Below, piece after piece: positions 3,368 through 61,322 of a stretch of 64,000 bases of DNA. A model generated the notes under the pieces. The model searched no databases, had not been told where the DNA came from, and saw nothing but the letters and a program-made list of their open reading frames with translations. Numbering within the stretch: position 1 is the first letter of the stretch; every line of letters starts with the position of its first letter. The DNA comes from Candidatus Nanopelagicales bacterium (lineage in GTDB: Bacteria; Actinomycetota; Actinomycetes; S36-B12), in contig JAQTZL010000004.1 of assembly GCA_028687755.1 (NCBI GenBank), positions 1-64,000 of the forward strand, given 5' to 3'. The translations under genes and the position numbers were made by a program.

Positions 3368-3399
3368 GCGGTAAACGGCGAGAACGCAACAGCCGCGAA

Positions 3400-5112: not shown

Positions 5113-5136
5113 GATGAATGAAGCGTAGGGAAATAG

Positions 5137-5448: not shown

Positions 5449-5822
5449 GGTCGTTCTTCCTCTCGTGCGTGTAGCCAGTCTTCAAACCTTTGATCGGCAA
5501 TGGGAATTGCCCTTCGGTACCAGTTGTTCCATTCACCCTGCTTATCTCCGGCCAGGAGGAGCACTGCATTACGCGCCGGGTCGAAGGCAAACAGAATTCG
5601 AAAGGTGCCAATCCGCAGCTCCCTCATATTCGCGAACTTGCTTCCATGTATTCGGTCAACCAGCGGCCTACCCAGAGTCGGCCCGAATTCGCTCAGAGCC
5701 TCCACCCCGTCGCTAATTCGGTCATAAGCGGAGCGATCAAGGGACTGAATCCAAGACGCCACCTCAACCACGACAACCACCACCCATCGTGATTGACGAC
5801 TCTCAGAATAGAACTCTTGCAT
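5445..5822 (-). CDS. HigB/RelE-type toxin (phage Gp49-like)
   Basis: A 125-residue toxin of the Gp49/HigB family: VASWIQSLDRSAYDRISDGV, then a core GRPLVDRIHGSKFANMRELR, IGTFRILFAFDPARNAVLLL, and the characteristic AGDKQGEWNNWYRRAIPIAD tail with a closing helix. The order is toxin first, antitoxin second, with a 4-base overlap. A run of six Val codons precedes the first helix. The ATG at 5820-5822 has TATTTT only 3 bases upstream, so the true start may be slightly different. The presumed action is ribosome-dependent mRNA cleavage. Confidence 0.88.
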   Translation of the reverse strand: MQEFYSESRQSRWVVVVVVEVASWIQSLDRSAYDRISDGVEALSEFGPTLGRPLVDRIHGSKFANMRELRIGTFRILFAFDPARNAVLLLAGDKQGEWNNWYRRAIPIADQRFEDWLHAREEERP

Positions 5823-5979
5823 TCTAAAATAGATCGTGTGAGAAGTAAATATTTGGCATGACCGACCGCTCCTTTGGCTAGAAAACCGCCAGTGTGAGCC
5901 GACAAGGCAGAAGTGATCAAACGGCTATCCACAGGCCACACCCTCATGCGCAAGGCACGGGCAAGAGGAGCATTCCCAC

Positions 5980-5985
5980 TAGGCT
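5980..5985 (+). promoter_or_regulatory. -10 box (TAGGCT) of GT4 gene
   Basis: TAGGCT is 7 bases before GTG 5993. It favours that codon over the GTG at 5894, which has no ribosome binding site or -10 box at the right distance. Confidence 0.45.
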
Positions 5986-5992
5986 CTTTGAG

Positions 5993-7846: not shown

Positions 7847-7877
7847 CGAGCATTCGATCGAGCAAATAGGAAGCCGA

Positions 7878-11399: not shown

Positions 11400-12616
11400 G
11401 CGAATACGCAGTCGAAATCTCCAATGTTGGCAAGCGTTTTATGCGCAGCAGCGAGCGTCGCAATTCCATTAAAGAACGCATCGTGCGCGGGCAAGGCAAG
11501 CGCGCTGAAGAGTTCTGGGCTGTCAAAGATGTGTCACTGAATGTTCCAAAGGGCAGTGTCTACGGCCTCATTGGTCATAACGGTTCCGGAAAATCAACAC
11601 TGTTGAAAATGATCGGCGGAATTTACCGACCAACGCAAGGCACCATCACCAGCCAGGGCCGTATCGCTTCGCTGATTGAGCTTGGCGCTGGGTTCCATCC
11701 GGAAATGACAGGCCGGGAAAACATTGGCTTGAATGGTTCGATTCTTGGCCTGCCACGTAAAGAAATAGCAGAAGTAACCGACGAGATCATTGATTTCTCC
11801 GGCCTTCGCGAATTCATTGACGATCCCGTGAAGCATTACTCAAGTGGCATGTATGTGCGTCTTGGTTTCGCTGTTGCTGTGCATATGAAGCCTGATGTGT
11901 TGCTCGTTGACGAAGTGCTCGCAGTTGGCGATGAAGAGTTCCAGCGTAAGTGTTTTGACCATCTCTATTCACTTCGTAAAGCCGGCAAAACCATCATCGT
12001 TGTGAGCCATGGCCTTGGCCAACTAGAAGCACTCTGTGATGAAGTTGCCTGGCTTGAACGCGGTACCTTGCAAGAAATTGGCGAGCCAACTGATGTTGTG
12101 GCGAGTTATCTCAAGCGCGTGAACGCTGAAGAATCTTCAAAGAATCCGCTCGCTGAAGCTAAGCGTGATGAAGCCGATCACGAAGGGGGCTTACAAAGCA
12201 ATCTTCGTTTGAAGTCAGTAGCGCTCACCAGTACCGATGGCACGCCGTTGAATCATGCGGAAACTGGCACCACCTTCACAATCAAGGTCGGCATGCACCT
12301 CACCGAAACAGTGCTTGGGCCAAATGTGCGCATCGCGTTGCAGCATGAATCAGGCCCGCTCGTGACGATGGTTGGCAATCACAAAGCAGGCTTTGATTTC
12401 AGTTACGTACCCGCCGGTGATCACATGGTGGAAATGGACCTGCTTCAAAACCCTTTGCTACCAGGGCGTTATCGCGTACACGTCGATGTGTTTGACCACA
12501 CTGGCGCCAAGTTGCTCGACTCTTGGAATGATGCGGCTGAGTTCCCAGTACGCAGCGCATCCGGTGAAATTGGCCAAGGCTTTGTTCAACTTCAAGCTGA
12601 ATACCGATTGAAGTAA
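11396..12616 (+). CDS. wzt: Polysaccharide ABC exporter ATPase with Wzt C-terminal glycan-binding domain
   Basis: 406 residues. The N-terminal ATPase has Walker A GHNGSGKST at 60-68, signature YSSGM at 148-152, Walker B LLVDE at 169-173 and switch His205. Residues about 255-406 form an extra beta-sandwich like the Wzt C-domain, which in O9a-type systems reads the capped end of the O-chain before export. Its presence suggests that the exported chain carries a terminal modification recognised here. GTG start overlapping wzm (GTGA). The operon continues with two glycosyltransferases. Confidence 0.95.
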   Translation: MSEYAVEISNVGKRFMRSSERRNSIKERIVRGQGKRAEEFWAVKDVSLNVPKGSVYGLIGHNGSGKSTLLKMIGGIYRPTQGTITSQGRIASLIELGAGFHPEMTGRENIGLNGSILGLPRKEIAEVTDEIIDFSGLREFIDDPVKHYSSGMYVRLGFAVAVHMKPDVLLVDEVLAVGDEEFQRKCFDHLYSLRKAGKTIIVVSHGLGQLEALCDEVAWLERGTLQEIGEPTDVVASYLKRVNAEESSKNPLAEAKRDEADHEGGLQSNLRLKSVALTSTDGTPLNHAETGTTFTIKVGMHLTETVLGPNVRIALQHESGPLVTMVGNHKAGFDFSYVPAGDHMVEMDLLQNPLLPGRYRVHVDVFDHTGAKLLDSWNDAAEFPVRSASGEIGQGFVQLQAEYRLK

Positions 12617-12618
12617 TC

Positions 12619-14361
12619 GTGGTCAGTGAATCCAACCCACTGATCAAGGCGAAGCGTCGCGCTGGCCGAGTGAAGCGTTACGTCAAGCGCAAGGTGTATG
12701 AACGCAACATCGGCAAGCATTACAAAGCGTGGTTAGCGCAAGCGGAAACCATTGCGCCTGGAACCACCACTCACGACTTCACTATCTCCATCATCGTTCC
12801 GGTCTATAACCCACCGATTGATTTCCTAGATGAGTGTTTGAACTCAGTTATCAAGCAGCAAGCAAGCAACTGGCAATTAGTGGTTGCAAACGATGGATCA
12901 ACGAAGCCTGAAGTCGCTGAATATCTGGCGGCATTTGCAGCAGCTCACGCAACCGATGCCCGAGTTCGCGTGGTCACCAAAGAAAACGGTGGCATTAGCT
13001 CCGCATTAAATGCAGCCTTAAGCCACGCGCATGGCGAATACGTGGGCATGCTCGATCATGATGATGCCTTGGATCCACGTTGCGTTGAACTCTTTAGCCA
13101 GACGATCGAAACCAATGCGCACCCTGATGCGGTGTATTCAGATGAAGACAAGCTCAGCCCAAAGGGCGAGCACTACGACCTTTACTGCAAGCCTTCGTTC
13201 TCACCAGAACTTCTGCTGACCCAGATGTATTTATGTCACTTCACCGTGTTCAAGCGCGAGCAGATGAATGCTGTAGGTGGGTTGCGAACCAGCATGGATG
13301 GTGCTCAAGATTTCGATCTTGCTTTGCGACTCCTTCCGCAGTTGAAAAACGTGGTGCGCATTCCCCTTCCGCTGTATCACTGGCGAGCATGGAGTGAGTC
13401 GACTGCACTTTCCATTGACGCAAAGCCGTGGGCTCAGCAATCTGCGGCGCGTGCACAGCAAGAACACATCGATCGAACCTTCAATGGTGGAACCGTCGCA
13501 CCAAGTCATATTCAAGGCTTGAATGAAGTGCATCCGAAGATTGAGGGAACTCACAAGGTTTCCGTGATCATTCCGACGATTGGCACCCTCAATGATCGTG
13601 GCACCAGCCGTTATGTCGACGATGCAGTGAAGTCATTGATCGAAAACGAAACTGAAACTGCGCTTGAGATCATCATTGTGACCACAGGTGTGATTCCACA
13701 TGTTGAAGTCGGCAATCTCGACAAGCATGAACTCAAGCACGTTGTGTATGACACCCAAAGTTTCAATTTCTCTGAAGCAATCAATGCAGGCCGCGCGGCG
13801 GCAACAGGTGACTACTTACTTCTTCTGAACGATGACACCACCGTTGCCGAAGCAAATCCGGTAACTAAGTTGCTCGAGATCGGTCAGATCGATGAAGTCG
13901 GAGTAACTGGAGCAAAGCTCACGTATCCGGATACTCGCTTCCAGCATGTAGGCATGGTGTTGTTGCCGAGCGGGCCCACCCATGCATGGATTAGCAAGCC
14001 CAATAAAGAACCTGGCTACTTTGGTTCGACGCTCACCCCACGCAATTACGCAGCAGTGACCGCAGCGGCGTTCTTGGTACGTACCAGTGTGTTCGATCAG
14101 GTTCAGGGCTTTGATGTGGCGTTTGCCAAGGATTACAACGATGTTGATTTCTGTTTGCGCGTACGCGAAGCCGGCTATCGCGTGGCTTGGACCCCGTATG
14201 CCCACTTCGTTCACTACGAAGGTGCGACGATGGCTCGCAAGAAGACAGACCAACAAGAACATGCACTCTTTGTTGAACGCTGGTCATCAATGCTCAACAA
14301 TGATCCTTATTACTCACCAGCACTGAACCCAGAGCTGCAGCGGATTTACGAGGCCCTGTAA
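12619..14361 (+). CDS. Tandem GT2 glycosyltransferase (two GT-A domains)
   Basis: 580 residues with two GT2 domains. The first (about 55-270) has ISIIVPVYNPP, VVANDGSTKP and the metal-binding MLDHDDALDP. The second (about 310-560) has VSVIIPTIG and LLLLNDDTTV. A basic N-terminal stretch (KAKRRAGRVKRYVKRKVYER) may bind membrane lipid headgroups. Two-domain GT2 enzymes often add alternating residues to a repeat unit. GTG start, 2 bases after wzt, so it belongs to the exporter operon. Sugar specificity unknown. Confidence 0.92.
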   Translation: MVSESNPLIKAKRRAGRVKRYVKRKVYERNIGKHYKAWLAQAETIAPGTTTHDFTISIIVPVYNPPIDFLDECLNSVIKQQASNWQLVVANDGSTKPEVAEYLAAFAAAHATDARVRVVTKENGGISSALNAALSHAHGEYVGMLDHDDALDPRCVELFSQTIETNAHPDAVYSDEDKLSPKGEHYDLYCKPSFSPELLLTQMYLCHFTVFKREQMNAVGGLRTSMDGAQDFDLALRLLPQLKNVVRIPLPLYHWRAWSESTALSIDAKPWAQQSAARAQQEHIDRTFNGGTVAPSHIQGLNEVHPKIEGTHKVSVIIPTIGTLNDRGTSRYVDDAVKSLIENETETALEIIIVTTGVIPHVEVGNLDKHELKHVVYDTQSFNFSEAINAGRAAATGDYLLLLNDDTTVAEANPVTKLLEIGQIDEVGVTGAKLTYPDTRFQHVGMVLLPSGPTHAWISKPNKEPGYFGSTLTPRNYAAVTAAAFLVRTSVFDQVQGFDVAFAKDYNDVDFCLRVREAGYRVAWTPYAHFVHYEGATMARKKTDQQEHALFVERWSSMLNNDPYYSPALNPELQRIYEAL

Positions 14362-29067: not shown

Positions 29068-29073
29068 AAATTA
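29068..29073 (-). promoter_or_regulatory. -10 box (TAATTT) of GT4 gene
   Basis: TAATTT is 7 bases before the ATG. It overlaps the end of the NeuB-family gene, so the GT4 may have its own leaderless promoter as well as read-through from upstream. Confidence 0.4.
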
Positions 29074-30141
29074 CGCAGTCACATCTGACCAGTGAAGTTC
29101 TTCACCGAATACCAGGTCGCGATTCAGAGTTGTTCCAAGCACCTTGGCAAACTCGTGCGCAGGAATTGCATCTGCTGGCGCTGGGCGCAGCACTTCGATA
29201 TCAGCTTCAGTGATCACGTTTCCTGCAGCGATTGGTCGCGCGGCACGCACGCAACGACGTTGTAATACAACGGTTTGTTCTTCATTTGGTTCCACGCGCT
29301 TTTGTCCGGTGCCAAGTGCTGCTTCCAACATTCGAGTGTCATCAACCATTGCTCGCCACGTTGTTGGATCAAGTGAGAAGCCATGATCTGGACCAACGCG
29401 CTTGGTATCATCAGTGAAGTGTTTTTCGACAACGCGAGCACCAAGCGTCACGGCGCCAAGCACAGTGACGTGTCCTGGAGTGTGATCAGAAAGTCCAAGA
29501 GTGACTCCTGGATACATCGAAGCGAATTGCGAAAGCACACGCAGATTCACGTATTGAATATTTTCAATTGAACCCGTGTAGTTGGTATTGCATTGCATCA
29601 ACACAATTGGCACGTTTGCTGCGGCAAGAAGATCCATCGCGCGTTCAACATCTTGCAAAGATGCGGCTCCTGCCGCAATTAAGACAGGCTTGCCAATGTC
29701 AGCGATGAACTGAAGTTCTTCAAGCCAGTTCACGTCACCCGAACCAACCTTGAATGCATTCATGTACGGGTTGAGGTGCGTGACTGCTTCAAGGTCGTAA
29801 GGAGCGGACATGAACTCAATGCCGATGCTTTGAGCATGAGCAGCCAGCTTGGCGGTCCAATCCCAATCAACAGCGGCGTCTTCATAGACCTCAAATACGG
29901 ATTTGGTCCAAGCAGCTTGATGGGACTGCTGGCCACCAAGGGAGCGGAAGCCATAGTCAGAAACGATGTGAGCGGCGCGGAAGTGCTGGAACTTGGCGCA
30001 ATCGGCGCCAGCTTCCTTGGCCAGGGTCATGAGCTCAAGGGCGCGATCGAGGTCGCCATCGTGGTTGGCCGCGATGTCGGCAATGAAATAGGTCGGCTGG
30101 TCAGGGCCAACCAAACGATCACCTAGCGCAAACGTGCTCAC
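29071..30141 (-). CDS. NeuB-family nonulosonic acid synthase with SAF domain
   Basis: 356 residues. The TIM-barrel domain (about 15-290) condenses phosphoenolpyruvate with a 6-deoxy or N-acetyl hexose to give a nine-carbon acid. Metal-binding His220 (LSDHTPG) and His241 (VEKHFT) are present, with IADIAANHDGD, KVGSGD and GPDHGFSLDP. The C-terminal SAF antifreeze-like domain (about 293-356) has ITEADIEVLRPAPADAIPAH. Whether it makes sialic, legionaminic or pseudaminic acid cannot be read. GTG 30139-30141 follows GGAGG by 4 bases; the frame is open further. SpsF-, PseB- and aminotransferase-type genes lie 24-31 kb away in this window. Confidence 0.92.
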   Translation of the reverse strand: MSTFALGDRLVGPDQPTYFIADIAANHDGDLDRALELMTLAKEAGADCAKFQHFRAAHIVSDYGFRSLGGQQSHQAAWTKSVFEVYEDAAVDWDWTAKLAAHAQSIGIEFMSAPYDLEAVTHLNPYMNAFKVGSGDVNWLEELQFIADIGKPVLIAAGAASLQDVERAMDLLAAANVPIVLMQCNTNYTGSIENIQYVNLRVLSQFASMYPGVTLGLSDHTPGHVTVLGAVTLGARVVEKHFTDDTKRVGPDHGFSLDPTTWRAMVDDTRMLEAALGTGQKRVEPNEEQTVVLQRRCVRAARPIAAGNVITEADIEVLRPAPADAIPAHEFAKVLGTTLNRDLVFGEELHWSDVTA

Positions 30142-30167
30142 GAAGCCTCCGTAGTCGAGTTGGCGCA

Positions 30168-30173
30168 ATCGTA
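30168..30173 (-). promoter_or_regulatory. Possible -10 box (TACGAT) of neuB-like gene
   Basis: TACGAT would give a leader of about 20 bases holding the GGAGG site before GTG 30141. It lies in the divergent gap shared with the DUF2142 gene. Confidence 0.35.
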
Positions 30174-30229
30174 CGGAAGAGTGACCAGATCGACGATTGC
30201 CTGCGGTCAATCCGGGGCAAATTCCTCTT

Positions 30230-42408: not shown

Positions 42409-43059
42409 ATGTCATCAATGCGTGAACGAATCAAAACAAGTATTCCATGTAGCACCGAGATATATAGATATGTAATTGACCGCAATAATATGGCACCAAC
42501 ACCAAAACGTGTGAAACATCTTCTCGAAACTCAGTCTTCAATCAAATTAGATATTGGTGGTGGTGGCCCAGGCCGTCATGGGTTCACAAGCATTGATGTG
42601 ACGCAGGATTGTGACCTCTACTGGGATTTGCGCCGAGGAATCCCATTTCCCAATGGATCCGTCGACGTTGTGTATTCCTCGCACCTATTTGAGCACCTCA
42701 CATTTGATCAAGGGCAGACGGTGTTGCAGGAATGCATGCGGGTACTTAAGCCAGGAGGAAAATTTTCAATCTCGGTTCCCAATGCACGCCTATACATAGA
42801 GGCATACATGGGATTGCGCGAACTGCCGCAAGAATTCTTAGCCTGGAAGCCAGCATTCAATGATTCAACGGCGATTGATGCAGTGAATTACATCGCCTAC
42901 ATGGGTGGCGAACATCAATACATGTTTGATATCGAAAATCTCAAGCACGTGTTAGAGCGAGCTGGCCTCATCTCAGTTACCGAGCGCACTTTTGATGCAG
43001 AGATCGATGTACCCGAGTGTGAATATGAATCTATTTATGCTGAAGGATTCAAACCGTAA
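42409..43059 (+). CDS. SAM-dependent methyltransferase (class I)
   Basis: 216 residues, Methyltransf_11 type. KLDIGGGGPGRHGFTSIDV (46-64) is the SAM loop, DVVYSSHLFEHLTFDQGQTV follows, and CMRVLKPGGKFSISVPN is the post-motif. A leader AAGGGGA precedes the ATG. It probably methylates a sugar or a glycan end made by the two preceding transferases. Its last 25 bases overlap the convergent dioxygenase gene. Confidence 0.88.
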   Translation: MSSMRERIKTSIPCSTEIYRYVIDRNNMAPTPKRVKHLLETQSSIKLDIGGGGPGRHGFTSIDVTQDCDLYWDLRRGIPFPNGSVDVVYSSHLFEHLTFDQGQTVLQECMRVLKPGGKFSISVPNARLYIEAYMGLRELPQEFLAWKPAFNDSTAIDAVNYIAYMGGEHQYMFDIENLKHVLERAGLISVTERTFDAEIDVPECEYESIYAEGFKP

Positions 43060-44051
43060 CGCTGAAGTACCCAGGGCATTTGTGCTACGCGTTCACGCGT
43101 AAGTTCTGTAGGTGTGAATTCGGGGGTTTCGTAATCCATACCGAAAAGTGATGTTGAGAATTCACTCTCTAAGGCAAGACGGTCTCCACGAAGTGGAGTT
43201 TTCCCTTTATGCAATCCGATCGTGTCGACAGCCATGATTGAGCCGGCTGGGCCACAGATCTCTGCCACGTTGTTCCATAGCCCAGCTGCCCGAACGACTT
43301 CATCAGTCTTACGACCATCACCGCGCAAAGAACGAGGGAGTTTTCGATGAGTGCCCTTGATGTACATGTGAGGGCCCGTCTCTGGGTCGACATCAGTCAA
43401 ATAAATAAAGAACTTTAAGAAGGACAAACGATCGCGATCCTGATGAAAGAGTTGTGCGTTGACATCGGCATCTTGAGCCCGCTGGCTTGTAGTCCACCAA
43501 AATGCCACTTCGTCCATCACAACTGGTTGACCAAGATACTTTTGCGAAATCAGAGCCATCACGGGATCAGTAGCAAATTCTTGAACTTCTGGGCACTGTA
43601 AGCCAGTTGCCTCATCGAAGTCATATCGGCCTACAGCTGGATTTGAACGTGGGTATGTAGCTGCTGGTGTGTTCGCGCCACGTGCAACGCAGGGTGCTTT
43701 TTCTGCAAACGCGCGAATGGCATCCGTAATGCTGTGGTCAACAACGTGATCAAAAACGTAAAAGCCGTCGCGCTGAATTGTGGCAACAGCTCGATCAGCT
43801 TCAGCTAAATCAATGAATCGGCTCGAATTACAGTCAGCGAGTTGCCAAGCCTGTGGATCATTTTCTTTGATCACACGGCGTGACACCCACTTACCAAGGC
43901 GGGGATCGATATCCATAGCTGAACGCATATTGAACTGCGTTTGCCCTGGCGTAGATCTAGGGATGGTTGCGCTCCCATTGAAGCTATGCGCTGCGGCAAC
44001 GGTTTTCGCAAGGCGCGGGAACTTGAGTGCCTTGTCGACCAATTCGCTCAT
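43035..44051 (-). CDS. PhyH-type Fe(II)/2-oxoglutarate dioxygenase
   Basis: 338 residues. The jelly-roll dioxygenase signature is visible: His203-x-Asp205 (LFHQDRD), distal His281 (IGLHKG) and Arg291 for 2-oxoglutarate (GDRLALE), typical of the phytanoyl-CoA dioxygenase family. VMDEVAFWWTTSQRAQDAD and YIKGTHRKLP fit the family. It would hydroxylate a sugar, lipid or small-molecule precursor. ATG 44049-44051 has TAGAGT 7 bases upstream; the frame is open further upstream but looks non-coding. The neighbours on the same strand are a DUF6492 protein, a methyltransferase and a DUF4910 protein. Confidence 0.88.
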   Translation of the reverse strand: MSELVDKALKFPRLAKTVAAAHSFNGSATIPRSTPGQTQFNMRSAMDIDPRLGKWVSRRVIKENDPQAWQLADCNSSRFIDLAEADRAVATIQRDGFYVFDHVVDHSITDAIRAFAEKAPCVARGANTPAATYPRSNPAVGRYDFDEATGLQCPEVQEFATDPVMALISQKYLGQPVVMDEVAFWWTTSQRAQDADVNAQLFHQDRDRLSFLKFFIYLTDVDPETGPHMYIKGTHRKLPRSLRGDGRKTDEVVRAAGLWNNVAEICGPAGSIMAVDTIGLHKGKTPLRGDRLALESEFSTSLFGMDYETPEFTPTELTRERVAQMPWVLQRYGLNPSA

Positions 44052-44058
44052 ATCCGCA

Positions 44059-44064
44059 ACTCTA
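44059..44064 (-). promoter_or_regulatory. -10 box (TAGAGT) of dioxygenase gene
   Basis: TAGAGT is 7 bases before the ATG and lies in the 37-base gap after the DUF6492 gene, so the dioxygenase can be transcribed on its own as well as by read-through. Confidence 0.45.
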
Positions 44065-44088
44065 ATCGATGGAGAGTATGTAGGAGAT

Positions 44089-45012
44089 TCAGCGTTTGAA
44101 GCGGCGCTGAGCGGTGTCCTTGAGTTTTGCCGACAAGACTCCGAGTAGCTCACCATAGGAGAGGTAACGAGCCAAGGAGTCCGGCTTGCTTGCCGAGGCA
44201 TCGACGACACCGAGATCGCGTGAATAGTTGGAGTTCACGACGATACCGAGATAGCCGCGAGCAATGTCTTTGATCGTGACGCCCCGCATTAGGTACTCAA
44301 GATGGTGACCTTCGTGGTGGAATACCTTGATCCAGGGCTCTCGAGCATGGATGGCTATCGGTTGCGCGTACTGCAGCCATATGTTGTACCAACTGAATTC
44401 ATATGGGGACTCGGCAAGCGCGTCTTTGTAATCCCAGCCGCGTGGCGCAAGAAAAGTTTCAACGAAAGAGCGCAACACCGTTGAAGAAAAAACAGTATGG
44501 CCGTGGCAGGTGCGGATGACCGAGGAATCCCACCCAATTAAATCTGCAATGTGCTGAATTTCAGTAGAGCGAGTTTTCCAATACTGGTTGTAGTAAGCAG
44601 GCTCAACTTCCAGCTCATGATCTTCAACGAGCACTGAATAAGGCGTTATCGCATCAAACATGAAATCGGCAATACGGAATTCTCGAATGAATTCAGCATC
44701 AGAGTCAACACAGAAGTAGTTGTCCGCCAATCCAAGTTCCCAGAACGCTAATTTGATGATTTCCTGATTGATGTATCCAGGGCGCATTCCATGAACTGGC
44801 TCAGTTACTAGGTGCTCAGCAAATCGAGACTCACCAAGGAATTCGATATTTTCTGAAGTAAGTGGTGCGAAGAGTTCTAAGTCGTGGTCTGGAACAACCG
44901 CGTATAAGTGCACCCCATCCGCATTGAACGTATTGAATGAGGTAACCAAACGCTGGGCATACTCAAAGTCCGCGCTGTAAGACTTTAAGAGCATTGCGAA
45001 CGGTTGAGTCAT
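44089..45012 (-). CDS. DUF6492 family protein (GT-A-like)
   Basis: 307 residues. The N-terminus AMLLKSYSADFEYAQRLVTS with LYAVVPDHDLELF is the DUF6492 pattern. NYFCVDSDAEFIREF contains a D-x-D (Asp103, Asp105), the metal site of GT-A glycosyltransferases. A WYNIWLQYAQ and FHHEGHHLEY region follows. The family is probably a glycosyltransferase but no reaction is known to me. ATG 45010-45012 lies 2 bases after the methyltransferase stop. Confidence 0.82.
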   Translation of the reverse strand: MTQPFAMLLKSYSADFEYAQRLVTSFNTFNADGVHLYAVVPDHDLELFAPLTSENIEFLGESRFAEHLVTEPVHGMRPGYINQEIIKLAFWELGLADNYFCVDSDAEFIREFRIADFMFDAITPYSVLVEDHELEVEPAYYNQYWKTRSTEIQHIADLIGWDSSVIRTCHGHTVFSSTVLRSFVETFLAPRGWDYKDALAESPYEFSWYNIWLQYAQPIAIHAREPWIKVFHHEGHHLEYLMRGVTIKDIARGYLGIVVNSNYSRDLGVVDASASKPDSLARYLSYGELLGVLSAKLKDTAQRRFKR

Positions 45013-45014
45013 GG

Positions 45015-45893
45015 TCAGGCGTTCTTTACTGCTTCGATGATGCCAGCAGAACATAGGAACATTCCGCGCCAGGTTCCTTCGTGCTCCAGAGCAATCTGAG
45101 CTTCACGGTATTCGCGTGGATCGATCTGATCAGCGAGCATTGGGTACGCAGGGTGGTAGTTGTACCAATGGAACTTCAAGTCTGAGTAGCCAAGTGAGCG
45201 AACAATCTCAGACAATTCAAAAGGATTATGGAAGCGAGCCAGGATTTCGTCGTAGCCGTCGCCAGTAGGGCGTGTGCGGACCGGTGGCTTGTTTACCTCA
45301 AGGCGAGAGTCAAGATCCGATGAGACAACTGCCTTGATCGACTCGGGGACATCAACAAGGAGTTCATCGAGAATGAATTCCTTGGTGAGACGGTTAAACG
45401 TAAACATGGAGAACATCGAATTGCGGAACTGCAAAATTAATTGACCGCCAGGTCGCAGAAATGAATCCATGCCTTGCACAAAAGCGAGGTCATCACTGAC
45501 GTGTGGAATTACGCCGAGAGCCATGACCGAATCAAATTCTCCACGCAGTTCGCGTTCAGCGGCAAGTGCATTCGCATCTTGCGCATCAAGCCAGGTGATT
45601 TGTGAACCTTCGAGGCCACGAGCCTCCATATTCCCACGTGCCACCTTGACCATCTCCGGTGAAATGTCATTGCCAGCAACGCGTAAGCCGGTGGCACCGA
45701 TGGTCGAGAGGGGTGAAGCGTCACCCACGCCAAGTTCGTAGACCGAAGTTGAACCGAATTCGGCAAGGAGTCGCTGCACAAGTTGCAAGCGAAAGAAATT
45801 AGCTGGGTATTCCTCGTTCGTCCAGATCTTTTCTGGGTCGTATTGATCCCCATAACTCGAAGCACTGCCGTCGTAGTGCGATGCGACTGACAT
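45015..45893 (-). CDS. SAM-dependent methyltransferase (class I)
   Basis: 292 residues. VYELGVGDASPLSTIGATGL (52-71) is the SAM loop, VAGNDISPEMVKVARGNMEA holds the acidic ribose-binding residue, and FDSVMALGVIPHVSDD with FLRPGGQLILQF is the C-terminal motif. The ATG shares one base with the DUF4910 stop (TGATG). A cap or insertion of about 70 residues after the core suggests a sizeable substrate. It belongs to the DUF4910-to-dioxygenase set. Confidence 0.88.
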   Translation of the reverse strand: MSVASHYDGSASSYGDQYDPEKIWTNEEYPANFFRLQLVQRLLAEFGSTSVYELGVGDASPLSTIGATGLRVAGNDISPEMVKVARGNMEARGLEGSQITWLDAQDANALAAERELRGEFDSVMALGVIPHVSDDLAFVQGMDSFLRPGGQLILQFRNSMFSMFTFNRLTKEFILDELLVDVPESIKAVVSSDLDSRLEVNKPPVRTRPTGDGYDEILARFHNPFELSEIVRSLGYSDLKFHWYNYHPAYPMLADQIDPREYREAQIALEHEGTWRGMFLCSAGIIEAVKNA

Positions 45894-47212
45894 CAAGCGC
45901 CTTTCCTCAGATGTACTTCAGTGAGCAATCCGTGCTCAAGCAATTCTGTTGCAAGTATCTGGATTTCTTCAACAGGACGGTCCAATAGATCGGCCATGTC
46001 TTGGAGCGAATGCCGCCCGTCTGAATAACTGAGTACGTGGGTGCGCAGCAGAATTTCGCCAGCAACGGTTCGGCCATGCATGGCGTGATAGAGACCACGC
46101 TTTCCAAGCTGTGGCTCACAGTGCTCAGTTGCCTGGTAATACACAGAAGTTTCAAGTTCATGAATTACTGCAGCTACGAGATCGAAGCCTCCTTGCAAGC
46201 CCGCTGGTGTGACAAAGGTGAGGTCATCTGCGGAGGAGTGGTACTGCGGGTATGAGCCGTACTTGGTTCGCATTAATGAAATCAAAGGAAGATCGACACC
46301 AGGCGCGCAGTATTGACGTTCGTCGCTTCCTCGATCGAGATAAGAATATTCAACAGGTTGTGGTGTTTGAGCAATTGCTCGCCGTGCAATTCGATCGATA
46401 GGAAGTCCACCCAAACGCGAGGCCATATACGAGTAGTCGCCTTCGTCGCCGATGCAGGTGAGTTGCATTCCTGCGATCACATGTGATTTGAGGTGATCAA
46501 GATTGCGCGAAATATAAGTAATCGCGCCAATTGTTTCTGGGACGAACACAAAACGGTACGAGTATTTGTGTGAAGGTAGTGACATCAACCATCGAGCAAG
46601 TGCAACTGAAACAACCGGCCCTGAGAGCTCGTTGTTTGCAAGTGACGGGTGGCAGATGTAGGTGGAAATAAAGACTTCTTCTTCGAGTTCACCTGGAATC
46701 ACTAATTCGCCGTAGGTCATCGAACCCGGCTGCAGCGTGCTGTCAATGTAAGCGTGGTATTCACCTGGGAGTAGCGCCTCGCGAACCTCGTGAGGCAGAC
46801 ATAAACCCCAGACCCGGTTGTAATAACTGGTGACATAAGGAATGGCGGTTGGATGTTCAGCATCCGAATGAAGGTGTGCCTGAAGCTCATCGAGGGTGAG
46901 ATGTAGATCTACCGGATCTGAATATCCGACAACATGAACATTGCTGTTGGCAAAATCGATGATCTTGGTTCCGTCTGGGCCAATGAGGTAGGCATCGCGG
47001 ATATTCCACTCATCGGGAATGGTCCAGTCAAAGGCTCGCGTGCCACTGGGTACCTCGTGGGTGACTAAACCTGGGAGATGTTGCTTCAGCACATCGAAGG
47101 TGGCACGGACTCCGTTACCCGTCAGGCTGCGTGGGAAATTCCAGAGCTCCTGGGCCAAGGCATGCATGAATCGACCCTCGGCGAGATTCGCCACGTCGGA
47201 TTCTTCCTTCAC
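45893..47212 (-). CDS. DUF4910 aminopeptidase-like protein
   Basis: 439 residues. The middle domain resembles M28 zinc aminopeptidases: ISTYICHPSLANNELSGP with His188 and Asn/Glu positions, VFVPETIGAITYISRN with Glu226, and YPQYHSSADDL with a late His. The first 130 residues form the DUF4910 lead (LAQELWNFPRSLTGNGVRAT). The last 70 form a winged-helix-like domain (HSLQDMADLLDRPVEEIQIL). Members are found in polysaccharide and natural-product clusters; the true substrate is unknown, and a hydrolase or deacylase of an amide on a sugar is possible. GTG start with GGAG 6 bases before it. Confidence 0.85.
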   Translation of the reverse strand: MKEESDVANLAEGRFMHALAQELWNFPRSLTGNGVRATFDVLKQHLPGLVTHEVPSGTRAFDWTIPDEWNIRDAYLIGPDGTKIIDFANSNVHVVGYSDPVDLHLTLDELQAHLHSDAEHPTAIPYVTSYYNRVWGLCLPHEVREALLPGEYHAYIDSTLQPGSMTYGELVIPGELEEEVFISTYICHPSLANNELSGPVVSVALARWLMSLPSHKYSYRFVFVPETIGAITYISRNLDHLKSHVIAGMQLTCIGDEGDYSYMASRLGGLPIDRIARRAIAQTPQPVEYSYLDRGSDERQYCAPGVDLPLISLMRTKYGSYPQYHSSADDLTFVTPAGLQGGFDLVAAVIHELETSVYYQATEHCEPQLGKRGLYHAMHGRTVAGEILLRTHVLSYSDGRHSLQDMADLLDRPVEEIQILATELLEHGLLTEVHLRKGA

Positions 47213-52515: not shown

Positions 52516-53370
52516 ATGACAATGAAATACACACCAGCCGATGTGTCTGCAGTGGTCTGCACACTGAACTCCATCAGCGGTATCGAAAGATGCGTCAAGA
52601 GTTTGAGATCGGCTGGCATAACCGAGTTGATTGTGGTTGATGCGAATTCGACTGATGGCACCAGAGAAGTTGCTGAAAAGTTTGCGGATAAAGTTGTTAC
52701 CGATCCAGGCAAAGGCCTTGGTATGGCACGCAATATCGGCATTGAGCAGACAACAAAGCACTTTATTCTCAATATGGGCTCCGACAACGTACTGCCTAGC
52801 GGTGAACTTGAAAAGATGATTCAAGCGCTCCAACTTGAGAATCAAGGCAACCTTCAAGGGGTGAGCGCACAAACACTCATTGAAGGTGATGACTACCTTT
52901 CAAATGGACTTAATGCGTGGCGAAAAGGTCGTTTCCTTCCCGGACCGGCCGCAGTAATTGGAACACCAACACTGTTCATCGGTAAGACGCTCAGAGCGCA
53001 CCCGTACGACCCGAATCGCAGATTCAGTGACGATTCAGAACTGTGTGAACGCTGGGCCAAGGACTTCAATGCGACCTTCGCTATCTCAGATGCTGTAGTT
53101 CATGAAGTAGGTAAAACCTCATGGAGTGAAATTGTGGTCCGCTGCAAGATGTATGGAGTGTCGGACTATGAAGTGTTTAAAGAAGGCACGAAATCCGGTT
53201 GGAGTCTTAAGCGAAAAACTAAGTCCTATCTTCATCCAGCTCGAGTCGATCTCGTCGTGCCATTGAAGAACCTTGAAATACACGAAAAGGTGAAGGCTCT
53301 TCCTTTTCTGGTCGCATTTACTGCAATGCGTTACGACTCCTGGATTAAAACGGGATGGAAAAACCGTTAG
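52516..53370 (+). CDS. GT2 family glycosyltransferase
   Basis: 284 residues. VSAVVCTLNSISGIERCVKS begins the fold, ELIVVDANSTDGTREVA binds the nucleotide, GKGLGMARNIGIEQTTKHFI follows and LNMGSDNVLPSGELE is the metal site. It ends with basic DSWIKTGWKNR. ATG 52516 is 22 bases after the ABC gene, so the two form one unit. The stop overlaps the convergent RmlD-like gene (TTAG shared). Confidence 0.92.
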   Translation: MTMKYTPADVSAVVCTLNSISGIERCVKSLRSAGITELIVVDANSTDGTREVAEKFADKVVTDPGKGLGMARNIGIEQTTKHFILNMGSDNVLPSGELEKMIQALQLENQGNLQGVSAQTLIEGDDYLSNGLNAWRKGRFLPGPAAVIGTPTLFIGKTLRAHPYDPNRRFSDDSELCERWAKDFNATFAISDAVVHEVGKTSWSEIVVRCKMYGVSDYEVFKEGTKSGWSLKRKTKSYLHPARVDLVVPLKNLEIHEKVKALPFLVAFTAMRYDSWIKTGWKNR

Positions 53371-54281
53371 CTCAAAATTTGATTTCGCAGTTCGGAGCGA
53401 TCGGTAAATGCATGCTGCAAACCGGCTTCTTGAGTGGGCAAAAGTCGTCCAAGTAACTGCGAGGCCTTCTTGGTATCAAGGCTCAAATTTCGAACCCGAG
53501 AAATTCCGTCAGCACCCGGTGGTGATGAAACCGATTGGATCAAACCAGAGTCCAACCCAAATTGATCAGCAACTGCGACACCAAAATCAAACTTAGAAAG
53601 CGCATTGCCAGCTACGCAATGAAATACACCCGATGCCTTCACCGCATTGAGGTCCCACAAGATCTGCATCAGATCCTGTGCATAAATTGAGGAGACGATG
53701 TAATCGTTGTAGCCACTAACCAATTCACCACGAGTTAATGAGTTGACGAAGAATTCAAGAATAGAGCGGGAACCTGTGGGGCTCCACCCGAAAAAATTTG
53801 TGCGCGCGATAAGTGCAGCAGGATTTTCTTCGAGTACAGCGAGCTCACCGGCTAATTTGCTTTGCCCATATGAAGAAAAGGGAGACGGTGTATCCGTCTC
53901 GTTGTAGTTGCCGCGAGCGCCATCAAAAACAGCATCAGTTGAAATGTGGATGAAGCGTGCGCCAACAGCAGCGGTACTGCGAGCAAGATTACGAGGACCG
54001 ACAACATTGGCATGATGTGCGAGTTCTGGCTCGCGCTCGCATAGTTCATGGCTTGCGATTGCAGCCGTGTTCAGCACTACGTCAGGCTGAATCGCGCGAA
54101 TAACTGAATCAACTGAAGAGCCGTCCGTGATGTCACATTTGACTATCGAACTGAACCCAGGAAGAGGGGAATGGGATCGAACTGTTCCAACAACATCAAC
54201 AGTTCCTTGCAGAAACGCCCCAGCATTACTGCCTAAGAATCCGTTGGCCCCAACCACAAGCCACGTGGAGTCGGCGGTCAC
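53367..54281 (-). CDS. RmlD-like SDR sugar-nucleotide reductase
   Basis: 304 residues, extended SDR fold. GANGFLGSNAGAF (11-23) binds NAD(P)H, ISTDAVFDG has the catalytic Ser/Thr, and SSYGQSKLAGE has Tyr138 and Lys142. The TDAVFDG form is like dTDP-4-dehydrorhamnose reductase, but the FFGWSPTGSRSILEFFVNSL stretch is typical of RmlD relatives placed beside PseB genes. It probably reduces a 4-keto sugar nucleotide made by the PseB-like enzyme with which it overlaps by 4 bases. It might serve as the missing RmlD; I consider that less likely. Confidence 0.85.
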   Translation of the reverse strand: MTADSTWLVVGANGFLGSNAGAFLQGTVDVVGTVRSHSPLPGFSSIVKCDITDGSSVDSVIRAIQPDVVLNTAAIASHELCEREPELAHHANVVGPRNLARSTAAVGARFIHISTDAVFDGARGNYNETDTPSPFSSYGQSKLAGELAVLEENPAALIARTNFFGWSPTGSRSILEFFVNSLTRGELVSGYNDYIVSSIYAQDLMQILWDLNAVKASGVFHCVAGNALSKFDFGVAVADQFGLDSGLIQSVSSPPGADGISRVRNLSLDTKKASQLLGRLLPTQEAGLQHAFTDRSELRNQILS

Positions 54282-55264
54282 AGCCCTAATTCATCCAACA
54301 TGGCGCGAAGTTGTGGAACATCGAGCCACTGGTCGTTGTTATCTGAGGTGTATGCAAAGTCATCAGGGACGCTTTCGCCTACTGATTCCTTGAATCCGCC
54401 CCACATTGCAAGTGTTGGTTGCACCACGTAGCGATCGGCGCGCTTCACCGTGCGGCGCGCATCTTCGGTGGAGATCATCTCTTCGTGGAGCTTTTCACCA
54501 GGGCGAATTCCAATATCAACAAGTGGGGCCCCTGGCGCAATTGCTTCAGCGAGATCAACGACCTTCATGCTGGGAATGCGTGGGACATAAAGCTCGCCGC
54601 CAGACATGTCCGTGAAAGAATCAATAACGAAATCAACGGCTTGAGGAAGTGTGATCCAGAATCGAGTCATGCGGGCATCAGTGATGGGAAGTGGTTGCCC
54701 GGCTGCTGCGAGATTGCGGAAAAATGGAATAACAGATCCGCGTGAGCCCATCACGTTGCCGTAGCGCACAACTGAAAAGCGGGTGCCACCATCAACGGCG
54801 TAATGGTTGCTCGAGATAAAAAGCTTGTCTGCCGTGAGCTTGGTGGCGCCGTAAAGATTGACAGGCGATGAAGCTTTGTCGGTAGAGAGGGCAACGACCT
54901 TCTTCACGCCGGCATCTAAGGAAGCCTGAATAACGTTTTCGGAACCCAAGATGTTTGTCTTGACATATTCCATCGGGTTGTATTCAGCGGTATCGACCTG
55001 CTTGAGGGCGGCCGCGTGCACTACGTAGTCAACGCCACGCAGAGCCATGTTCAGCCGGTCGCGGTCGCGGATATCACCCAAGAAGAAGCGAACTCGAGGA
55101 TCATCGCCCCAGGTTTGCCGCATTTCATACTGCTTGAGTTCATCGCGGGAGAAGATGACTACGCGTGCAGGATTGTGCGTGGTGAGCAGTTGATCCAGAA
55201 AGGCTTTGCCGAACGATCCGGTGCCTCCAGTAATGAGGATGGACGCGCCTTCAAAAGTGGTCAC
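54278..55264 (-). CDS. pseB: UDP-GlcNAc 4,6-dehydratase, PseB/FlaA1-like
   Basis: 328 residues from GTG 55262-55264. ILITGGTGSFGKAFLDQLL (9-27) binds NADP, and IFSRDELKQYEMR is diagnostic. LSTDKASSPVNLYGATK supplies Asp129, Lys130, Tyr138 and Lys142, the residues of inverting dehydratases that start the pseudaminic acid pathway. GGAG lies 6 bases before the GTG; the frame extends 15 codons upstream to an ATG without signals. It is followed by the RmlD-like gene in one unit. The partner aminotransferase (PseC type) is not adjacent. Confidence 0.92.
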   Translation of the reverse strand: MTTFEGASILITGGTGSFGKAFLDQLLTTHNPARVVIFSRDELKQYEMRQTWGDDPRVRFFLGDIRDRDRLNMALRGVDYVVHAAALKQVDTAEYNPMEYVKTNILGSENVIQASLDAGVKKVVALSTDKASSPVNLYGATKLTADKLFISSNHYAVDGGTRFSVVRYGNVMGSRGSVIPFFRNLAAAGQPLPITDARMTRFWITLPQAVDFVIDSFTDMSGGELYVPRIPSMKVVDLAEAIAPGAPLVDIGIRPGEKLHEEMISTEDARRTVKRADRYVVQPTLAMWGGFKESVGESVPDDFAYTSDNNDQWLDVPQLRAMLDELGL

Positions 55265-55454
55265 GTAACTCCTCAATAGCTCATGTTCGTCGACGTTTAG
55301 CGAACCCATATCTTAGCCGGTGGCCTCAGGATATTTCGAAATCAAGATCCTCTCTCCGGCAGTAAAGGCCAGTTGAGTAGTGACAGGGAGCTCGTGTCCA
55401 TGGCAACGACCTTTTAAAATAACTAAGGTATTCCTCAAGGGAGTTTTAAGACCT

Positions 55455-58436: not shown

Positions 58437-59276
58437 ATGCAATCTCTAGTCCTTGGTACTGCCCAATGGGGAAGTGCCTATGGAGTAACGAATCAGACAG
58501 GGCGACTTTCGAATGAAGAAATCGCAAAGGTGATCGCTACCGCGAAGGAAGCGGGGCTAGGTTTCGTTGATACTGCTGCAAATTATGGTGATGCAGAATT
58601 TCGGCTAGCACCATGGGCACAAGATTTTGGCATAACTTCAAAAGTCAAGGGGGCCGACCACCAGTCGATAGAAAAGCAAGTGAGGGAGTCGCTCAGCAGT
58701 CTTCAGATTTCTCGTTTGAGAGTTTGCCTGATTCATGATTGGTCCACAATGGATCTAGTGGCGTCACGAGCAGCTCTTTCTGAATTACGAAGGTTGCAAA
58801 GGGATGGACTGATTGAGAAAATTGGGTTTTCCGCCTACGACGAATCAGATCTTGTTAAAGTTAGTCAATATAATGGCGTTGTTCAGTGTGTTCAACTTCC
58901 TATCAGCGCGCTTGATCAGCGAATGATGCAATCTGAGAGCGTTTGGAACCTCAAGTCCCAAGGCGTAGAGGTTCAAGCTCGCAGCATTTTTCTCCAAGGC
59001 CTTTTGGCTAGTCGCTCTGAAACTACGCAGGGCAGGCACGTTGACGTTATTCGCTTCCATGAGATTTGTGAGAGAGCTGGCATGAACCCGATAGAAGCAG
59101 CACTTGATTTTGTCAAGAGTTTGGTGTGGGTGGACCAAGTAGTAGTTGGAGTGACTTCCGCAGTGGAGCTTCAAACAATCGTGGATTATTGGAACAGTTC
59201 CCCGCCCACGGATCTATCGTTTCTGGGCTCTAATGATCTCAATCTGATCGACCCACGATTATGGAATCTCGTATGA
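58437..59276 (+). CDS. Aldo/keto reductase
   Basis: 279 residues. The aldo/keto reductase tetrad is visible: Asp45 (FVDTAANYGD), Tyr50, Lys69 or Lys71 (ITSKVKG) and His100 (LIHDW). GTAQWGSAYG opens the barrel. It reduces a keto group with NADPH. It is first in a tightly overlapping unit with SpsF-type and class III aminotransferase genes, a set seen in nonulosonic or unusual aminosugar pathways. The 4-base overlap with the next gene supports a shared pathway. Confidence 0.9.
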   Translation: MQSLVLGTAQWGSAYGVTNQTGRLSNEEIAKVIATAKEAGLGFVDTAANYGDAEFRLAPWAQDFGITSKVKGADHQSIEKQVRESLSSLQISRLRVCLIHDWSTMDLVASRAALSELRRLQRDGLIEKIGFSAYDESDLVKVSQYNGVVQCVQLPISALDQRMMQSESVWNLKSQGVEVQARSIFLQGLLASRSETTQGRHVDVIRFHEICERAGMNPIEAALDFVKSLVWVDQVVVGVTSAVELQTIVDYWNSSPPTDLSFLGSNDLNLIDPRLWNLV

Positions 59277-60031
59277 AAACGACTGCAATAGTTCAAGCAA
59301 GGATGAGCTCAACTAGGTTTCCAGGAAAAGTTCTGGCGGACCTTGCAGGTGCTCCGATGATTATTCGGCAACTTGAACGGCTCCGAAGATCCGCGGCTAT
59401 TGACCAAATAGTGGTAGCTACTTCAACAGATCCAAGTGACGATAGTTTAGTGGACTTGCTCATAAAAGAGCAGATCCCAGTTGTGCGAGGAAGCCTCGAT
59501 GATGTCCTTGAACGATTCGTCCAGGTCTTAGATGAGTACCCATCTGAAACAGTTGTTCGGATAACCGGCGACTGTCCATTGATTTCCCCAGAGGTCATGG
59601 ATGACGTGATTGCTTTCTTTTTTAACTCGAAGGCGGATTACGCATCGAATACGATGAACCCGACCTTTCCCGATGGGCTTGACGTAGAAGTTGTTAGAGC
59701 GAAAGTCTTGCGCGCAATTCACGAAATTTCTACCGATGGTGCTGAGCGAGAACATGTCACGCTTGGAATTTACAGACGACCAGAAACGTTCACGATTGCA
59801 AATTTTGAAGGACGCGATGACACCTCTGAATTGCGGTGGACAGTGGACACTCCTGAAGACCTAAATTTTGTGAGAGGTGTATTCGCGGAGCTGTATCCGA
59901 TGAATCCACAGTTCGAATTAGCCGAAATCCATGAGTATTTACAGCGTCACCCAGATCGAAACCGTACAGTTAGAGACGCAAAAAGAAATGCGGCTCTGCA
60001 GGGTTTAGATACAGGAGTGATGAATGCCTAG
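59273..60031 (+). CDS. spsF: SpsF-type cytidylyltransferase-like protein
   Basis: 252 residues. TTAIVQARMSSTRFPGKVLA is the nucleotide loop of SpsF/KdsB-type CMP-sugar synthetases. VVRITGDCPLISPEVMDDVI has the metal-binding Asp and SELRWTVDTPEDLNFVRGVF is the family end motif. It probably activates a nonulosonic acid or related sugar with CTP. ATG 59273 overlaps the aldo/keto reductase stop (ATGA); an in-frame ATG at 59261 lies inside that gene. It overlaps the aminotransferase gene by 8 bases. Confidence 0.93.
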   Translation: MKTTAIVQARMSSTRFPGKVLADLAGAPMIIRQLERLRRSAAIDQIVVATSTDPSDDSLVDLLIKEQIPVVRGSLDDVLERFVQVLDEYPSETVVRITGDCPLISPEVMDDVIAFFFNSKADYASNTMNPTFPDGLDVEVVRAKVLRAIHEISTDGAEREHVTLGIYRRPETFTIANFEGRDDTSELRWTVDTPEDLNFVRGVFAELYPMNPQFELAEIHEYLQRHPDRNRTVRDAKRNAALQGLDTGVMNA

Positions 60032-61322
60032 CCTCACCGAACGTTATGTGCGCTCGGTTGAATATCTGGCGAGGGCTGAAGCGGTCATTCCACTTGGATC
60101 ACAAACATTCAGCAAGTCACGCACTCAATATCCCGCAGGTGCTGCACCACTTTTCGCCCAACGTTCGTTCGGAAGTCGCACTTGGGATATTGACGGCAAC
60201 GAGTATGTTGATTTAGTGAGTTCGCTGGGGGCGGTGGCTCTTGGTTACGGTGATGAAGAAATTCATGAAGCAGTAGTAAAGCAACTCAAAGACGGCGTAA
60301 CCCTGAGCCTTGCGCATCCGATAGAAGCAGAAGTTGCAGAACGTCTTGTTGATCTCATTCCATGTGCGGAAAAAGTCCGGTTTGCTAAGAATGGATCTGA
60401 TGCAACGTCCGCAGCGATAAGACTTGCTCGCGCATTTACTGGCAAGGAACATGTGATCGTGTGTGGGTATCACGGTTGGCAGGATTGGTACATCGGCAGC
60501 ACAACAATGCATCGCGGGGTACCAAATTCAATTAGGGCACTTACTCATTCCATTACCTATAACGATATTGATGCCCTGATTACCGTGGCAGATCGCCTAC
60601 AAGGAAACGTTGCGGCGCTGATTATGGAACCCATGACTTCATCGTTTCCAGATCCGCACTATCTGCGTGAAGTTCGAAGAATCACGCAAGAACGAGGAAT
60701 TGTTCTCGTTTTCGATGAAATGCTCACCGGGTTTCGTTTTGCACCCGGTGGTGCTCAGGAATATTTCGGTGTCACTCCTGATCTTGCGGCCTTCGGTAAA
60801 GCACTAGCAAATGGATTTCCGCTTTCCGCGATTGTTGGGCGTGCTGACATCCTCAACGTCATGCCAGACATTTTCTTTTCAGGAACTTTTGGCGGGGAGA
60901 CCTTGTCACTCACTGCTGCAAATGTAGTACTTCAACGAATGGCAACAGGAGTCCCGACTAATCAGTTGGCCTCGATTGGTAAATCTCTGATCGAAAGAAT
61001 CGATGCGACACGCTCAGAGGTATCGAAACCCGTCCTGACTTTTTCGGGCCATGATTCATGGATTTTCCAGCAGTGGCACATTGACGACTCAGAGGTATTG
61101 GCGCAGGCCAAGACCCTTTTCCTTCAAGAGATGTTGCGACGAGGGGTTCTTGTGCTCAACACCCATGATGTAACCACAGCTTTCAAGGCCGAAGATATTG
61201 AAGTGGTTGCTATTGCCTACGCGGAATCTTTGAACGAAGTCTGCTCAGGACTCACTGGCAGAGATCTCCTGTCTCGCCTCGAGTGTGAGCCGATTCGACC
61301 ACTCTTTCGGGTACGGTCGTGA
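60024..61322 (+). CDS. Class III aminotransferase (glutamate-1-semialdehyde aminomutase-like)
   Basis: 432 residues, PLP fold type I. Lys259 (AAFGKALANGFPL) binds PLP, Asp231 (VLVFDEMLTGFRF) holds the ring nitrogen and NGSDATSAAIRLAR (123-136) binds phosphate. The best-known relatives are GSA aminomutases of haem synthesis. Here the setting beside SpsF and an aldo/keto reductase indicates transamination of a keto sugar in surface-glycan synthesis, a known use of this branch. It ends the unit; a 390-base gap follows. Confidence 0.92.
   Translation: MPSLTERYVRSVEYLARAEAVIPLGSQTFSKSRTQYPAGAAPLFAQRSFGSRTWDIDGNEYVDLVSSLGAVALGYGDEEIHEAVVKQLKDGVTLSLAHPIEAEVAERLVDLIPCAEKVRFAKNGSDATSAAIRLARAFTGKEHVIVCGYHGWQDWYIGSTTMHRGVPNSIRALTHSITYNDIDALITVADRLQGNVAALIMEPMTSSFPDPHYLREVRRITQERGIVLVFDEMLTGFRFAPGGAQEYFGVTPDLAAFGKALANGFPLSAIVGRADILNVMPDIFFSGTFGGETLSLTAANVVLQRMATGVPTNQLASIGKSLIERIDATRSEVSKPVLTFSGHDSWIFQQWHIDDSEVLAQAKTLFLQEMLRRGVLVLNTHDVTTAFKAEDIEVVAIAYAESLNEVCSGLTGRDLLSRLECEPIRPLFRVRS

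Follow-up and report, generated by a model that had tools for sequence, protein, structure and literature searches.

A DUF4910 protein and its methyltransferase partner as a candidate nonulosonic acid remodelling pair in a freshwater actinobacterium

For more than 10 years a crystal structure and the phenotype of a mutant have been available for the DUF4910 family, yet it lacks an assigned reaction. In Campylobacter jejuni, attachment of 2,3-di-O-methylglyceroyl to N5 of the pseudaminic acid on flagellin requires Cj1295, whose loss leaves the N5-acetyl group in place, and the authors proposed that the protein cleaves that acetyl (PMC3068675). The structure is that of CA_C2195 from Clostridium acetobutylicum (PDB 3k9t), and Das et al. 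placed the family in modified-carbohydrate gene clusters, the tabulated one of which includes NeuB, while raising transacylation as a possible activity (PMC4000134). Here we describe a family member encoded beside a class I S-adenosylmethionine-dependent methyltransferase, a DUF6492 protein, and a PhyH-type oxygenase in the first 64 kb (the window, the whole stretch analyzed) of the 232-kb contig JAQTZL010000004.1, part of the 2.5-Mb genome of a freshwater actinobacterium (Candidatus Nanopelagicales bacterium, GCA_028687755.1). The four genes lie in a large surface-glycan locus with ATP-binding cassette exporter genes, many glycosyltransferases, and sugar-nucleotide genes. The original prediction for this DNA put the set forward as a candidate undescribed system, which does not hold for the DUF4910 family given its structure and published glycan role (PMC4000134, PMC3068675); what is new is a conserved methyltransferase partner for this nonulosonic-acid remodelling family, along with a local oxygenase.

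All four genes are on the reverse strand. The DUF4910 gene (positions 45893 to 47212, GTG start) encodes a metallopeptidase-like protein of 439 amino acids with an inserted DUF2172 domain and a C-terminal HTH_47 domain, all three Pfam models passing their cut-offs (DUF4910, 322 bits), and we propose that it acts as a sugar N-deacylase. Its TGA stop overlaps by one base the ATG start of the methyltransferase (MT) gene (45015 to 45893; 292 amino acids; Methyltransf_11, 42 bits, over cut-off), whose product is the proposed partner acting on the freed amine. A 2-base gap separates the MT stop from the ATG of the DUF6492 gene (44089 to 45012; 307 amino acids; PF20102, 33.8 bits versus a cut-off of 22.9), a proposed transferase, and the Fe(II)/2-oxoglutarate oxygenase gene follows (43035 to 44051; 338 amino acids; PhyH, 33 bits, over cut-off). 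Order, spacing, and all four family labels agree with the original prediction, while the PhyH start that it gave, 44210, was not borne out. Because homologue alignments begin at residue 1 when translation starts at ATG 44051, that codon is the best candidate start; 44210 would be too far upstream, and the start at 44051 leaves a 37-base gap after the DUF6492 gene. An NCBIfam search assigned no name to the DUF4910, DUF6492, or PhyH proteins. A second methyltransferase gene (42409 to 43059) is convergent with the PhyH gene, with which it shares 25 bases at the PhyH 3' end; it travels with the cassette in three related loci (L032, L033, and L034) and is not found in two others (L030 and L031).

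The DUF4910 protein matches 3k9t over its full length (residues 13 to 411, E = 3.4e-105), shares the three-domain architecture of CA_C2195, and keeps H188 and H325, the counterparts of zinc ligands His189 and His324. CA_C2195, which also belongs to a NeuB-containing cluster (PMC4000134), differs in retaining the ligand Asp195, where the window type has Asn194-Glu195, and its published neighbourhood holds an acyl carrier protein and N-acetyltransferases but no stand-alone methyltransferase partner. Cj1295 is assigned to the same family on its published account, which describes it as aminopeptidase-like, places it in PIRSF015244, and lists the C. acetobutylicum homologue alongside it (PMC3068675), and not by sequence comparison. 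It occurs with PseB and PseC, and its target is a nonulosonic acid at the N5 substituent, but it serves flagellin pseudaminic acid and adjoins a putative N-acetyltransferase gene, Cj1296/7, whereas the window protein has an MT partner, an adjacent PhyH gene, and a NeuB that is not PseI. Of the aminopeptidase-like hydrolase originally predicted, the family membership stands and an intact aminopeptidase does not: assignment as an M28 aminopeptidase was rejected, as the M28 catalytic Asp and Glu are replaced by Ser190 and Pro225 here and across the family. Among 19 diverse sequences H188 and H325 are invariant, and little or no variation is seen at D297, R299, and other residues of the cleft.

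A branch of the family associated with CDP-sugar genes in rhizobia and Streptomyces, near PIG-L deacetylase, C-methyltransferase, and rfbC genes, keeps Asp-Asn at the ligand position and mostly has Gly at 226. Comparison of these residues suggests that DUF4910 proteins have two metal-site types, a division not described in PMC4000134 or PMC3068675. At loci of the second DUF4910 branch (L074, L075, L076, L078, L079, L082, and L087), the neighbours encode a glucose-1-phosphate cytidylyltransferase, a C-methyltransferase, a PIG-L deacetylase, RfbC, and often a glutamate-1-semialdehyde (GSA)-type aminotransferase, and the probable product there is a branched or amino sugar linked to CDP.

Scanning 85,000 species for DUF4910 and analyzing its neighbours yielded 117 DUF4910 places, at which two kinds of partner predominate. 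In 52 of the 117 loci DUF4910 lies near an N-acyltransferase of the AAC(3) type, which is free-standing or, as in Maritalea, fused to FkbH, and in 25 it lies near an MT of the window type; a single locus has both, with an MT-like fragment 8.7 kb off, and the two never stand side by side. Partners mostly lie within a few dozen bases of DUF4910, on either side depending on the lineage, and the DUF4910-MT pair was seen in Actinomycetota, Pseudomonadota, Acidobacteriota, and Thermodesulfobacteriota, with both gene orders represented. In Robiginitomaculum (L094, L095, L098, and L102), an acidobacterium (L104), a metagenome-assembled genome of Desulfovibrionaceae (L112), a proteobacterium (L114), and two further loci (L219 and L220), the pair is isolated among housekeeping genes, and no acyl donor system was found near such stand-alone pairs. 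Seventeen of 18 MT-type genomes lack AAC(3), and 17 of 18 lack FkbH; of 13 AAC-type genomes or records examined, 8 have FkbH. In a tree of the MTs, the DUF4910-linked proteins of Actinomycetota, Robiginitomaculum, and L114 form one clade (support, 99/98), with those of L104 and L112 in a neighbouring branch. On the DUF4910 tree, MT carriers are scattered over several positions that imply at least 7 to 10 changes, and partners have therefore been swapped repeatedly. DUF4910 and MT form an ancient core two-gene unit, to which PhyH and DUF6492 are local additions.

Within the order, we sampled 148 genomes, counting as PhyH orthologues, MT relatives, and window-type NeuB those proteins with at least 48%, 44%, and 68% identity, respectively. 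DUF4910 occurs in 18 genomes, DUF6492 in 22, PhyH orthologues in 14, and MT relatives in about 22. Co-occurrence of the four families elsewhere, on which the original prediction had staked its case, was found: the contiguous four-gene order recurs in five loci (L029, L030, L031, L032, and L033) from the same genus and two more genera, and the set is present on split contigs in another genome (G024), so the association is more than chance. The same survey rejects the idea that the four genes are equal parts of one tight system, as only the DUF4910-MT pair is conserved across phyla and the other two genes are distributed otherwise. DUF6492 occurs without the other three genes in seven loci (L041 to L047), one cassette lacks the MT (L040), another has a GT61 protein in the PhyH position (L036), and in two (L203 and L204) DUF4910-MT is intact with DUF6492 elsewhere and PhyH several kilobases off. 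In L034, 5 kb of deoxysugar genes separates PhyH and DUF6492; this module (3208 to 8242) is on the opposite strand and encodes a short-chain dehydrogenase/reductase, a GT2 protein, a DegT-type dehydrase/aminotransferase, and a CDP-glucose 4,6-dehydratase-like protein. One further DUF4910 copy (G072:C100:11368-12624; 39% identity) has an in-frame TGA and may be a pseudogene or an assembly error.

The PhyH gene follows a stricter rule inside this actinobacterial family, the only group in which it is tied to DUF4910. Orthologues occur in exactly the 14 genomes having both DUF4910 and window-type NeuB and in no other of the 148, often kilobases from DUF4910 (G119, G126, G019, and G057). DUF4910 and window-type NeuB themselves coincide in these 14 genomes versus 2.8 expected. 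For PhyH and DUF4910 the expected overlap is 1.7 (Fisher P = 2e-16, or 1e-9 with the 53 family genomes only), values uncorrected for kinship and from genes that mostly share one locus.

The same locus carries genes for a nonulosonic acid pathway, with a dehydratase, a NeuB synthase with SAF domain, and a CMP transferase (CTP_transf_3) occurring together. PseB, an inverting UDP-GlcNAc 4,6-dehydratase (54278 to 55309, reverse strand; TIGR03589, 492 bits, over cut-off), overlaps an RmlD-like reductase (53367 to 54281, reverse strand; PF04321; TIGR01214, 177 bits, below the equivalog cut-off). A sugar operon on the forward strand contains an aldo/keto reductase (AKR; 58437 to 59276; PF00248), an SpsF-like cytidylyltransferase that would activate the sugar acid (59261 to 60031; PF02348, 113 bits), and a class III, GSA-type aminotransferase (GSAAT; 60024 to 61322; PF00202; NF004856, 355 bits, below cut-off). 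The likely maker of the backbone, and the only NeuB match in the genome, is the NeuB-family synthase with its SAF domain (29071 to 30210, reverse strand). It scores below the NCBIfam equivalog cut-offs for both NnaB (260 versus 400 bits) and PseI (224 versus 340 bits), and by these curated thresholds it is classed as a separate type in the NeuB family, with relatives 52 to 57% identical in genomes that carry DUF4910 elsewhere. A fusaminic-acid-like sugar was among the products considered for this pathway.

Other genomes link this pathway to the pair. The order PseB-AKR-SpsF-GSAAT recurs in L039 and L097. In L039, DUF4910-MT-DUF6492 leads directly into PseB-AKR-SpsF-(transposase)-GSAAT, with PhyH 11 kb off; the transposase gene between SpsF and the aminotransferase occupies 12454 to 13434. 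In the betaproteobacterium L097, PseB-AKR-SpsF-GSAAT-RmlD-NeuB and a divergent MT beside DUF4910 form one cluster. NeuB scores exceed 180 bits in 16 of the 18 MT-type genomes. The nearest annotated DUF4910 relatives lie beside PseB, PseC, PseF, PseG, PseI, and AAC(3) in one case (L072) and beside PseB, an FkbH-AAC(3) fusion, and NeuB in another (L071). Robiginitomaculum has a window-type NeuB (52 to 55% identity) with PseB, SpsF, and RmlD near genes read from the sequence as flagellin genes and its MT-DUF4910 pair elsewhere in the genome, and among 150 genomes of its order a window-type NeuB is found in 5, including both MT-pair genomes. PseB and an SpsF-RmlD-NeuB-GNAT cluster stand beside several flagellin genes (L214, 1392 to 9528, and L218). 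This gene order suggests that Robiginitomaculum flagellin is glycosylated with a nonulosonic acid of the window type.

The MT, DUF6492, and PhyH proteins were also compared with known enzymes. For the MT, an AlphaFold2 model with a predicted local distance difference test (pLDDT) score of 90.5 has as its nearest folds CmoM (Z = 22.5), ChlM, GSMT, UbiG, NodS (19.6), and TylM1 (19.3), which mix N-, O-, and C-methyltransferases, and profile matches are similarly mixed (UbiG best, then GNMT and MitM). Amine methyltransferases appear among the profile or fold matches (GNMT, GSMT, MitM, NodS, and TylM1). PtmH, which PMC13317340 cites as an N-methyltransferase that modifies a nonulosonic acid at its N5 substituent (legionaminic acid, Leg5AmNMe7Ac), would be a parallel to the proposed MT role, as judged from that description; its methyl, however, sits on an acetamidino group. 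The Shewanella sfm flagellin modification operon was dropped as a parallel, as its genes differ. Tandem paralogous MTs, about 58% and 35 to 38% identical to the window MT, occur in L199 (7748 to 9527), L200, and L201 (6917 to 8721), in genomes G091, G085, and G057; G091 and G085 have no DUF4910. In L199 the two tandem MT genes adjoin an rdgB-like gene and lie close to a murI-like gene and to genes of a zinc-transport operon.

The DUF6492 model (pLDDT, 86) has a GT-A glycosyltransferase fold, and an invariant D103-S104 is followed by D or E. Its best structural alignments (VIA-align) are with the Stealth sugar-1-phosphate transferases GNPTAB (Z = 17.0) and CpsY (16.2), ahead of GT8 proteins (12 to 13). 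Sugar-1-phosphate transfer is therefore a real option on the modelled fold, although a profile search against solved structures returned no match. Within the set of papers searched, none dealt with DUF6492 or COG4310. In the PhyH protein, the H203-x-D205 and H281 metal triad and the 2-oxoglutarate arginine R291 are invariant in 11 homologues.

Taken together, the two enzymes of the pair may together remodel a sialic-acid-like (nonulosonic) sugar that would be made in the same locus by PseB, the RmlD-like reductase, NeuB, the SpsF-type cytidylyltransferase, and associated enzymes. DUF4910 would hydrolyze the amide bond at an acylamino position, most likely the GlcNAc-derived N5, and MT would methylate the freed amine. 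In most other lineages an AAC(3)-type acyltransferase would re-acylate that amine in place of methylation. PhyH would hydroxylate the decorated sugar in this actinobacterial family, and DUF6492 would take part in glycan assembly by transferring sugar or sugar-phosphate units, without being specific to the decoration. The simplest model, in which DUF4910 uncovers a sugar group and its partner caps it, with an acyl cap from AAC(3) (and FkbH), as in C. jejuni, or a methyl cap from MT, is preferred because it explains the alternative partners, and as MT-type genomes lack acyl machinery, methylation of the bare amine is therefore favoured. We infer the substrate, the order of steps, the bond broken, N- rather than O-methylation, and the roles of PhyH and DUF6492, and we give the scheme as a whole a little short of an even chance. 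The glycan decoration originally predicted stands as regards the locus, with an acyl- or amine-type decoration best supported, and its methylation and hydroxylation steps keep the conditional form given here.

A precedent for such logic exists in rhizobial Nod factors, where NodB removes an N-acetyl group and the freed amine is N-methylated by NodS or N-acylated by NodA. The likeness is a mechanistic analogy only, on which the deacylation-then-N-methylation chemistry is modelled: the Nod enzymes act on a chitooligosaccharide, the deacetylase NodB is not related to DUF4910, and the MT, although NodS is in its fold list, shares 12% identity with NodS and resembles many other methyltransferases just as closely. 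It is possible, and we put it forward tentatively, that the same logic evolved independently here, with DUF4910 de-N-acylation and MT methylation giving a cationic N-methylamino nonulosonic acid, PhyH-hydroxylated in this family, and with AAC(3) re-acylating the same intermediate elsewhere, so that partner choice would set glycan charge.

Several observations weigh against deacylation followed by amine methylation. The best fold match of the MT, CmoM, methylates a carboxylate oxygen and its best sequence match, UbiG, is an O-methyltransferase, so fold leaves N versus O unsettled. One rival takes up this point: DUF4910 would remove an acetyl, another acyltransferase such as a GNAT would add a hydroxy-acyl group, and MT would O-methylate that group. 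The C. jejuni model for this is pseudaminic acid bearing 2,3-di-O-methylglyceroyl, a Cj1295-dependent product with acyl-chain O-methyl groups (PMC3068675). A GNAT-like gene read directly after NeuB in Robiginitomaculum would suit it, but AAC(3) and the glyceroyl loader FkbH are each missing from all but one of the MT-type genomes and the stand-alone pairs have no acyl donor system nearby, and we consider this route rather doubtful. The metal site is a further difficulty, as the catalytic Glu of M28 enzymes and their co-catalytic zinc ligands are missing from DUF4910, and Asn194-Glu195 stands in place of the 3k9t ligand Asp195. As the latter replacement is shared by 100 of 115 relatives, it is therefore read as a subfamily trait and not as lost family membership. 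Such losses, along with the Ser190 and Pro225 replacements and the transacylation option of Das et al. (PMC4000134), would also fit a DUF4910 that hydrolyzes nothing and instead, as a scaffold either catalytically dead or active in transacylation, holds the sugar in position for its acyltransferase or MT partner. That explanation is unlikely, since the conservation of H188, H325, D297, R299, and other cleft residues argues for catalysis and the N5-acetyl left by Cj1295 loss is as expected when a deacylase is lost (PMC3068675).

Distribution raises other objections to deacylation and amine methylation by a dedicated pair. In acidobacteria and spirochaetes that carry the pair, NeuB matches are only weak. 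An independent-pair test of MT/AAC(3) exclusion, corrected for relatedness, ran in the expected direction, the two partners never going together, but was not significant (7 pairs, P of about 0.25). Some MT relatives occur in genomes without DUF4910 (G091, G085, G133, and others), though these are nested inside the DUF4910-linked clade and are therefore probably derived. The four genes could also simply share a variable surface-glycan locus, with each acting on a residue of its own and proximity an operon convenience. The seven loci with DUF6492 and no DUF4910, the split cassette of L034, the missing MT of L040, and the GT61 replacement in L036 all point that way. Against it, the MT-DUF4910 pair is retained where there is no glycan locus around it, and PhyH accompanies DUF4910 and NeuB in all 14 genomes, adjacent or not, and we regard simple neighbourhood as quite improbable.

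For a family that has gone so long without a reaction, the pairing of DUF4910 with either an N-acyltransferase or one MT family, along with the stand-alone MT pairs, narrows that reaction to the uncovering of a group for modification by the partner. Remodelling by DUF4910 and MT also makes a prediction: methylated sialic-acid-like sugars would be carried by common freshwater actinobacteria and by the flagella of Robiginitomaculum.

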